A DNA stretch of 64,000 bases from Lysinibacillus irui (GTDB taxonomy: Bacteria > Bacillota > Bacilli > Bacillales_A > Planococcaceae): NCBI RefSeq assembly GCF_028877475.1, contig NZ_CP113527.1:427501-491500 (forward strand), given 5' to 3'. Made by a program: the position numbers and the translations under genes. Shown piece after piece: positions 52,846-54,012 of the stretch. The notes below the pieces were generated by a model. It was not told the origin of the DNA, ran no database searches, and was given only the letters and a program-made list of their open reading frames with translations. How positions within the stretch are numbered: the stretch's first letter is position 1; every line of letters starts with the position of its first letter.

Positions 52846-52875
52846 TGGGGTTAGCTAAGGCTAGCCCCATTTTTA
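52846..52875 (+). terminator. Terminator of speB
   Basis: GGGGTTAGC/GCTAGCCCC (one G-U) followed by ATTTTTA. Confidence 0.8.
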
Positions 52876-52953: not shown

Positions 52954-53000
52954 ACATGATTTCAATGGATAGTATCCGTACCTGAAATCATGTTTATTCC
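52954..53000 (+). promoter_or_regulatory. Strong hairpin in the leader of the small membrane ORF/yidC message
   Basis: An 11-bp perfect stem (ACATGATTTCA/TGAAATCATGT) encloses an inner GGAT/ATCC helix and is followed by TTATT. It lies about 40 nt before the leader ORF and could terminate readthrough or act as an attenuator. Confidence 0.5.
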
Positions 53001-53036
53001 TAGCTAACGTAATAAAAATAGGGAAGGAGGAGTATG

Positions 53037-53312
53037 ATGATTTGGTCACTTCTCATCAATGATTTATTCATCTTTGTCAGTACAATGGAATACTTTTGGC
53101 TATTAGCTTCTTTACTTTTAACTGTACTAAGTGTTCATTTGCATTTGTATTTAGTTAATAAAATAACCATTCAAGAAGTGAAGGACGAAGAGTTTGAAGT
53201 TGACTATAATATCACGAATACTTGGACTCCACCTATGTTAACGTGGTTTGTTCTTTGTATTAGAACGTCAGAAGATAATGAGGAAGAAAGTGTCTCTCCT
53301 AGTTTCATTTAA
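53037..53312 (+). CDS. MifM-like membrane leader peptide upstream of yidC (candidate arrest peptide)
   Basis: 91 aa. One membrane segment is at about residues 10-40 (LFIFVSTMEYFWLLASLLLTVL...). A polar stretch follows, then the C-terminal TWFVLCIRTSEDNEEES and a last SVSPSFI. The Trp about ten residues before an Asn-plus-acidic cluster recalls the arrest region of B. subtilis MifM (Trp, Arg, then NDEED), a 95-residue monitor of YidC activity that stalls its own ribosome. The codons for the last residues form one arm of a hairpin that buries the yidC ribosome site. AAGGAGG lies 6 nt before this ATG; an ATG one codon earlier is possible. Arrest itself cannot be seen in sequence. Confidence 0.7.
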   Translation: MIWSLLINDLFIFVSTMEYFWLLASLLLTVLSVHLHLYLVNKITIQEVKDEEFEVDYNITNTWTPPMLTWFVLCIRTSEDNEEESVSPSFI

Positions 53313-53327
53313 AGTTTAAACTAGGAG
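53296..53327 (+). promoter_or_regulatory. Hairpin sequestering the yidC Shine-Dalgarno
   Basis: CTCCTAGTTT (53296-53305, inside the leader ORF) pairs perfectly with AAACTAGGAG (53318-53327). The second arm contains five of six bases of the yidC AGGAGG. The leader stop codon is in the 12-nt loop. A ribosome held on the acidic cluster about 10 nt before the first arm would cover and open the stem. Confidence 0.8.
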
Positions 53328-53335
53328 GAATAGCA

Positions 53336-53968
53336 TTGTTAACATTTTTAGCACAACCTATCATTTACCTCATACATTTCATCCATTCTTTCACAGGAAG
53401 CTATGCGATTAGTGTTATTGGTATTACGATAGCGGTAAGATTAATGCTTATGCCGTTATTTATTCGATCGGCTCAACACCAAAAGCGTTCAAAAGAATTA
53501 ATGACGTCAATTAAGCCTGAATTAGATGCGCTAACTGCTAAGTTTAAGAATAGTAATAACGAATCTGAAAAAATAAAGGTTCAACATCAAATTCAGGAGT
53601 TAACAGCAGGTTCTTTAAAAAGTTCGTTATTAGGTTGTTTGCCAATCATTATTCAATTACCTATATTATTTTCACTGTATTATGCGATTAAACTAGATTC
53701 AGTTATCGCAAGTGAAAATTTCCTTTGGATGAATTTAGGTACGATAGATATTGGCATTTCGATGATTGCTTGTTTGATCTATTTAATTCAAAGCTGCATT
53801 TCTTTAGAAAAAAGCCAGCCATTAAATATGAAGGTTATGGTGTTCGTTAATCCAATCATGATCCTTATTTTTAGTTTGTTCAACCCTGCGATTATTCCAA
53901 TATACTGGACTGTTAGTGCTTTATTATTAATGATTCAACAATTGATTATAAAAAAAAGGTATAGATAG
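53336..53968 (+). CDS. yidC: YidC/Oxa1-family membrane protein insertase (YidC2-like, no lipoprotein signal)
   Basis: 210 aa. The catalytic Arg of the first core helix is in ITIAVRLMLMPLF, followed by the cytoplasmic coiled-coil hairpin and LLGCLPIIIQLPILFSLYYAI, then three more helices. The family inserts membrane proteins. It is short: most Bacillales copies are 250-280 aa with an N-terminal lipoprotein signal, which is absent here. The TTG start has AGGAGG 7 nt ahead, inside the hairpin described above. Translation is thus expected to depend on the leader ORF. Confidence 0.9.
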   Translation: MLTFLAQPIIYLIHFIHSFTGSYAISVIGITIAVRLMLMPLFIRSAQHQKRSKELMTSIKPELDALTAKFKNSNNESEKIKVQHQIQELTAGSLKSSLLGCLPIIIQLPILFSLYYAIKLDSVIASENFLWMNLGTIDIGISMIACLIYLIQSCISLEKSQPLNMKVMVFVNPIMILIFSLFNPAIIPIYWTVSALLLMIQQLIIKKRYR

Positions 53969-53976
53969 AATGATAA

Positions 53977-54012
53977 AGTCCTCTCTTAATAAAGGGAGGA
54001 TTTTTAATTTTT
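53977..54012 (+). terminator. Terminator of yidC
   Basis: TCCTCTCTT/AAGGGAGGA stem, then TTTTTAATTTTT. Confidence 0.78.

Follow-up and report, generated by a model that had tools for sequence, protein, structure and literature searches.

Why does the genome of Lysinibacillus irui place a short open reading frame (ORF) directly before a third copy of yidC? The original prediction had placed a MifM-like translation-arrest switch in front of yidC. We analyzed a 64,000-nucleotide stretch of this genome (the window), together with related genomes, and our reading is close to that one. The ORF is probably an arrest leader that senses insertase activity as MifM does but has a diverged motif, and it is predicted to turn on a spare YidC when insertion fails.

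The leader and yidC form a unit on the forward strand, bordered by two terminator-like hairpins found with a consensus scan, one upstream of the unit after speB (52846..52869) and one downstream after yidC (53975..54004). The leader has an AGGAGG Shine-Dalgarno (SD) sequence at 53025..53030 and runs from an ATG at 53037 to a TAA ending at 53312 (53037..53312). It encodes 91 amino acids, close to the 90 or so residues first reported. We took this ATG as the start because the codon before it is ATA, not ATG, in nine relatives. The most hydrophobic 19-residue stretch (codons 22-40, 53100..53156; mean hydropathy, 2.03) is a predicted membrane segment. Further on, an alignment of relatives revealed a conserved tail core, W63-T-P-P-M-L-T-W70-F-V-L-C-I-R76 (53223..53264). 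It is followed by the acidic run E79-D80-N81-E82-E83-E84 (53271..53288), which by analogy with MifM is the predicted stall region. Within codons 87-90, CTCCTAGTTT (53296..53305) is the 5' arm of a stem. Its exact reverse complement (53318..53327) is the 3' arm and includes five of the six bases of the yidC SD, AGGAGG (53323..53328). The stem has 10 Watson-Crick pairs and a 12-nt loop, and an extra U-G pair takes in the sixth SD base. The third yidC (53336..53968; 210 amino acids; PF02096, E 9e-29) begins at a TTG. This rereading of the sequence agrees with the earlier placement of the leader ORF, the 10-bp stem and the yidC start, and with the residues earlier listed (Trp70, Arg76, and Glu79-Asp80-Asn81-Glu82-Glu83-Glu84). 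It also agrees that most of the SD lies inside the stem.

The leader stop codon sits in the loop of the hairpin, and yidC starts 23 nt further on. This arrangement could point to plain translational coupling, in which a ribosome reaching the leader stop opens the hairpin and passes to yidC, with no arrest or sensing. A terminating ribosome would briefly open the stem.

Some other features of the upstream region were seen by eye or in single genomes. The leader 5' untranslated region of the window has a perfect 11-bp inverted repeat (ACATGATTTCA/TGAAATCATGT; 52954-52993) with an 18-nt loop, which by eye is absent from the same region of nine relatives. In four relatives (L040-L043), TTGACT and TATAAT, separated by 18 nt, lie shortly 5' of the leader and look by eye like the unit's own promoter; by eye the window shows no such pair. 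One L. fusiformis genome (L061:722-2374) has a 550-codon ORF, SIR2-like by eye, in place of speB upstream of the leader.

The genome carries three yidC genes: a SpoIIIJ-like copy after rnpA, a copy encoding a YidC2-like lipoprotein, and the accessory copy behind the leader, in which no lipoprotein signal was seen. The controlled gene was originally named simply as yidC. That stands, with the amendment that it is the accessory third copy. This copy (at least 82% identity) occurs in 10 of 32 genomes of the genus, and the leader occurs in the identical set of 10; we refer to these leaders as class 1. All seven named loci with the leader are from Lysinibacillus, and 22 database relatives are, where source names are given, Lysinibacillus hypothetical proteins. 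In a YidC tree with 40 rows, 39 of them distinct, from which the four loci that yielded no sequence are missing, the ten class 1 YidC proteins formed one clade with support of 100/99, outside the YidC1 and YidC2 rows. Long branches meet at the deeper joins, so the tree does not resolve the kinship of the accessory YidCs. Leaders of this layout were seen before none of 21 genus YidC2 loci. There was no upstream ORF of at least 50 amino acids in 20 of 20 such loci, and none of at least 40 amino acids before YidC2 of the window's own genome.

The constant company of leader and third yidC in 10 genomes, together with the predicted membrane segment and conserved C-terminal tail, is also what would be expected if the peptide acted, once complete, as a small membrane protein, perhaps one that partners the third YidC. 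The hairpin would then merely set the ratio of the two. All 10 class 1 leaders share Trp63, Pro65, Pro66, Leu68, Trp70-Arg76, Glu79 and Glu82-Glu84; position 80 is D or N, and position 81 is N or S. Two database relatives (P0016 and P0020) have some of Glu82-Glu84 swapped for Asp, with the charge kept. By Nei-Gojobori counts, pN/pS is 0.27, 0.21 and 0.24 for residues 1-16, 17-42 and 43-58. It falls to 0.09 in tail residues 59-84, the most constrained part of the leader, compared with 0.15 in class 1 yidC itself. For residues 85-91 it is 0.58, and synonymous difference is lowest there (pS, 0.156). Codons 85 and 87-89 are invariant in the 10 loci, third positions included, while 86, 90 and 91 vary; the varying third bases of codons 86 (53294) and 90 (53306) are just beyond the ends of the stem. 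On our reading, these values and the invariant codons 87-89 mean that selection acts on the protein as far as Glu84 and on the RNA past it. Any peptide would serve for coupling, but selection is stricter on the tail than on yidC itself. Against the small-protein account, conservation is strongest directly 5' of the hairpin.

The stem is identical in all 10 class 1 loci. The conservation and covariation asked about earlier were found in part. Trp70, Arg76, Glu79 and Glu82-Glu84 are invariant, but the stem shows no covariation within these 10 loci. Loss of the tail or stem in relatives had been named in advance as one outcome that would refute the switch; both were conserved, and the reading was not refuted. 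That the leader and third yidC co-occur and that tail and stem are constrained support the switch.

A strong stem directly before yidC might instead be a transcription terminator or attenuator, with the leader incidental. However, the SD-covering stem is not listed by the terminator scan and lacks a T run after it, selection acts on the leader as a protein, and the locus has no Rfam match at E 0.1. We consider this explanation hardly credible. We also asked how often such a stem arises in the same genome, using 292 mechanically called ORFs (at least 120 amino acids) with an SD-like motif from 21 stretches totaling 464 kb. Two of these have a Watson-Crick stem of 10 bp that takes in four or more SD bases. 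One is the present locus, and the other is followed by a T run and is terminator-like. No 4-bp Watson-Crick stem holding four SD bases was found at 273 of the 292. The Watson-Crick count is the telling one because 12 of the 292 reach 10 bp or more when G-U pairs are allowed. The rarity of this stem, and the 21 of 21 genus YidC2 loci without such a leader, also argue for the switch.

Leaders before other accessory yidC genes fell into five further classes. Class 2 is found in seven genomes of the genus, before a different third yidC with 34-36% identity to that of the window. Its 86-residue leader ends W-L-R-(K/T)-V-I-Y-S-K-S-D-N-D-E-E-L and has a weak hydrophobic segment (mean hydropathy, 1.19). 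Class 1 and class 2 were never seen together in one genome. Class 3 comes from two genomes of another genus (g19), before a lipoprotein yidC, and has the tail W-L-P-P-(I/L)-L-(H/R)-W-x-V-K-C-I; W63, P65, P66, L68, W70, V72, C74 and I75 of the class 1 tail are also present there. Class 4 is in four g17 genomes, and classes 5 and 6 are in one genome each (G146 and G061). Pfam and NCBIfam gave no family for the leaders scanned. Among solved structures, the class 1 leader had no match and class 2 had matches at chance level. Weak profile hits (E 0.002-0.1) were mostly frames with stops, and of four that we read (L079, L082, L084 and L085) only L079 is real.

Three yidC matches at E 1e-10, a threshold that may miss more distant copies, were found in 27 of 261 genomes of the family. 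A leader-bearing accessory yidC is present in 24 of these 27 (10 class 1, 7 class 2, 2 class 3, 4 class 4, and 1 class 6). The class 5 genome has two yidC matches and is not an unbiased case, because it was found through its leader. In the remaining three of the 27 (G016, G134 and G159), the extra copy is a second SpoIIIJ-like one, and the leader layout is missing before it. In these three, which belong to three genera, the DNA and a short ORF before that copy look alike (L051, L220 and L217), and the ORF ends ...ILYGI...YTKNVK...; this is possibly another kind of control region. Separately, at ~1210-1600 of locus L052 (G014:C20), a degraded class 2 third yidC is interrupted by stops and has lost its 5' part as well as the leader, by what looks like a deletion.

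The hairpins of the six classes are unrelated in sequence, yet each overlaps the yidC SD (in class 6 by just two AGGAGG bases). The 5' and 3' arms are CTCCTAGTTT/AAACTAGGAG in class 1, CCCTTTTATAA/TTATAAAAGGG in class 2, CCTTTTGATT/AATCAAAAGG in class 3, TCTCTCTAT/ATAGAGAGA in class 4, CCTTCTATTTTTAG/CTAAAAATAGAAGG in class 5, and CTCTTATTAT/ATAATAAGAG in class 6. The automatic stem search picked other stems in L047 (class 2) and L156 (class 4) and in L049 (class 2) a stem 8 bp short of the SD; L047 and L049 fold with an SD-overlapping hairpin, which is bulged in L049. This recurrence in five further groups, before accessory yidC genes, supports the switch. We measured stem offset from base 1 of the final acidic codon to the start of the 5' arm. 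It is 10 nt in all 10 class 1 and in five of seven class 2 leaders, 7 and 10 nt in class 3, 11-12 nt in three of four class 4 leaders, 16 nt in class 5, and 14 nt in class 6. Five mifM loci from a Bacillus-like genus were compared. L222 and L223 have a clean SD stem at offsets of 10 and 11 nt, and L225 gives 10 nt with 6 bp. L221 and L224 have a longer perfect stem than the one at the SD, and both fold with an interrupted SD-overlapping hairpin. The match between the 10-nt offset of class 1 and the 10-11 nt of the two clean mifM loci is a further argument for a switch. We also considered whether the acidic run, and not the stop codon, sets the position of the stem. We dropped this idea because the offsets over the groups, 7-16 nt from the last acidic codon and 5-14 nt from the stop, are spread about equally.

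Is the arrest region itself related to MifM? The published MifM motif is RIxxWIxxxxxMNxxxxDEED (PMC7897499). Of its six single residues, class 1 keeps the Trp alone, plus the acidic run (E82-E84); I74 of MifM is Phe, and R69, I70, M80 and N81 are not kept, so class 1 falls outside the published motif. Profile comparison of class 1 with MifM gave P 0.088 (0.087 with nine MifM sequences), which is not significant, and shuffled tails gave borderline values of 0.036-0.047. Stronger links run through the other classes. Profile P values were 6e-9 for class 1-class 3 (75 columns), 8e-4 for class 2-class 3, 0.05 for class 1-class 2, and 3e-4 for class 2-MifM (6e-5 with nine MifM sequences); profile comparison of classes 3 and 4 with MifM gave no tail match. 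In the shuffled-tail test (28 pairs, uncorrected for multiple tests), values were 0.0012-0.0015 for class 1-class 2, 0.0002-0.0005 for class 2-MifM, 0.0002-0.0007 for class 1-class 5, and 0.21-0.67 for class 3-MifM, and class 4 and class 6 tails showed no tie to any other. The tails can therefore be set in a chain from MifM to class 2 and on to classes 1, 3 and 5. The claim of a MifM-like but diverged arrest region holds for the Trp, the acidic run and this indirect link, but not as a direct profile match (P ~0.09). We did not file the leader as MifM proper; direct similarity is borderline at best, and the link passes through intermediate leaders. The exact published motif, used as a DNA pattern, was found in 0 of 398 class-level genomes. 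This is uninformative, because the profile finds mifM in 5 of 398 genomes of the same kind of draw, and the mifM loci read from that search have DDED for DEED or MK for MN.

The other classes and their tails also bear on the two accounts left standing above. Coupling does not explain why a predicted membrane segment followed by a tail recurs in unrelated leaders, and we consider it unlikely. The small-protein account is less probable still. Other accessory yidC genes are preceded, at this very position, by leaders without detectable likeness to the present one, and the class 1 tail resembles arrest tails via class 2.

The switch would probably work as follows. Cellular insertases would engage the N-terminal segment on its emergence. 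Insertion of the segment would exert a pull that frees the ribosome; translation would then end, the hairpin would close, and the spare YidC would stay low. If it is not inserted, the ribosome would wait where its P site lies near codons 84-87 and its leading edge at about 53302-53311. The waiting ribosome would break the 5' stem arm, free the SD (53323-53328), and raise YidC. A P site at codon 84 (53286-53288) would put the leading edge at about 53301-53303, with most of the 5' arm broken. Leading-edge positions follow from the size of the ribosome footprint. Release by membrane insertion is borrowed from MifM and CliM (PMC6037786, PMC13183943).

The ribosome itself raises a difficulty. In B. 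subtilis, Met90 of uL22 decides MifM stalling, and Gln at this position is unlikely to promote it (PMC4423224). We read position 90 (3j3v_S numbering) in 24 genomes with a class 1-5 leader and five without. It is Gln, not Met or hydrophobic, in all 29, including the window's own genome. The residue before the conserved Trp is T in class 1, K (six) or R (one) in class 2, H and R in class 3, and H in class 5. It is thus K, R or H in all 10 sequences of classes 2, 3 and 5 (K, 6; R, 2; H, 2). In MifM, T72R partly rescued uL22 M90K (PMC4423224). These residues would fit a tail that has been retuned to the tunnel of Gln90 ribosomes, although the independent groups are few and the five leaderless genomes also have Gln.

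The chain of tail similarity from class 1 through class 3 and class 2 to MifM adds to the support for the switch already given. We counted several points against it: no significant direct profile match to MifM, one of six single MifM residues kept, uL22 Gln90, no stem covariation in class 1, a stem-acid distance of 7-16 nt over the groups, a segment-to-acid spacing of 44 residues versus 59 in MifM (published median 54), and the weak class 2 hydrophobic segment. A MifM-like switch before yidC is still the best-supported reading, with tail and stem conserved, although the direct match to MifM is not significant and uL22 has Gln90. A further proposal is a close call, and we hold it tentatively. 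The tail W-x-P-P-x-L-x-W-x-V-x-C-I, followed by D/N-N-x-E-E, may be a new arrest sequence tuned to uL22 Gln90. Before accessory yidC genes of this family, both the arrest tail and the SD-covering hairpin may have been replaced several times with the switch layout kept. If the leader stalls, then a MifM-type switch works on Gln90 ribosomes, which are expected not to stall on MifM. The natural tail changes (K, R or H before the Trp) could then be compared with laboratory suppressors such as MifM T72R, and the system would show how cells keep a reserve insertase switched off while they have no need of it.

In 2026, three arrest peptides were counted in front of yidC: MifM, ApcA and CliM (PMC13183943). 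Among open-licence papers, we found no publication on MifM in Lysinibacillus or sphaericus, or on yidC arrest in Planococcaceae. A published collection has 572 MifM sequences from 592 Firmicutes genomes (PMC10987492), and the present leader may be among them. Like MifM, the leader has about 90 codons, an N-terminal hydrophobic segment, and a Trp and an acidic run near the C terminus, and it is an upstream ORF directly before a secondary (here, third) yidC. In both, the yidC SD is paired with the last leader codons, with the stem at an offset of 10-11 nt in the two clean mifM loci. The tails differ. MifM, which precedes yidC2/yqjG in B. subtilis and stalls at residues 89-92 (PMC4423224), has R-I-x-x-W-I-x5-M-N-x4-D-E-E-D, whereas the tail here is W-T-P-P-M-L-T-W-F-V-L-C-I-R-T-S-E-D-N-E-E-E. 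The hydrophobic segment lies 44 residues from the last acidic residue here, 49-62 in the other classes, and 59 in MifM by the same measure; the published MifM median is 54 (PMC10987492). Unlike the MifM target, the YidC controlled here is a third copy without a lipoprotein signal. ApcA of actinobacteria is likewise an arrest leader with an N-terminal membrane segment before a presumably secondary yidC, but it arrests at R-A-P with Gly in the A site, and no SD hairpin is predicted there (PMC7897499). Neither R-A-P nor an R-A-P-P-like motif, as in ApcA and the RAPP-like RQH leaders, occurs in this leader's sequence. CliM (uC_KYxIW) of Clostridia is also an arrest leader with a membrane segment before one of three yidC genes, with a stem that masks the SD (PMC13183943). 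CliM has a KYxIW motif, which is absent from the present leader, and no essential acidic run.
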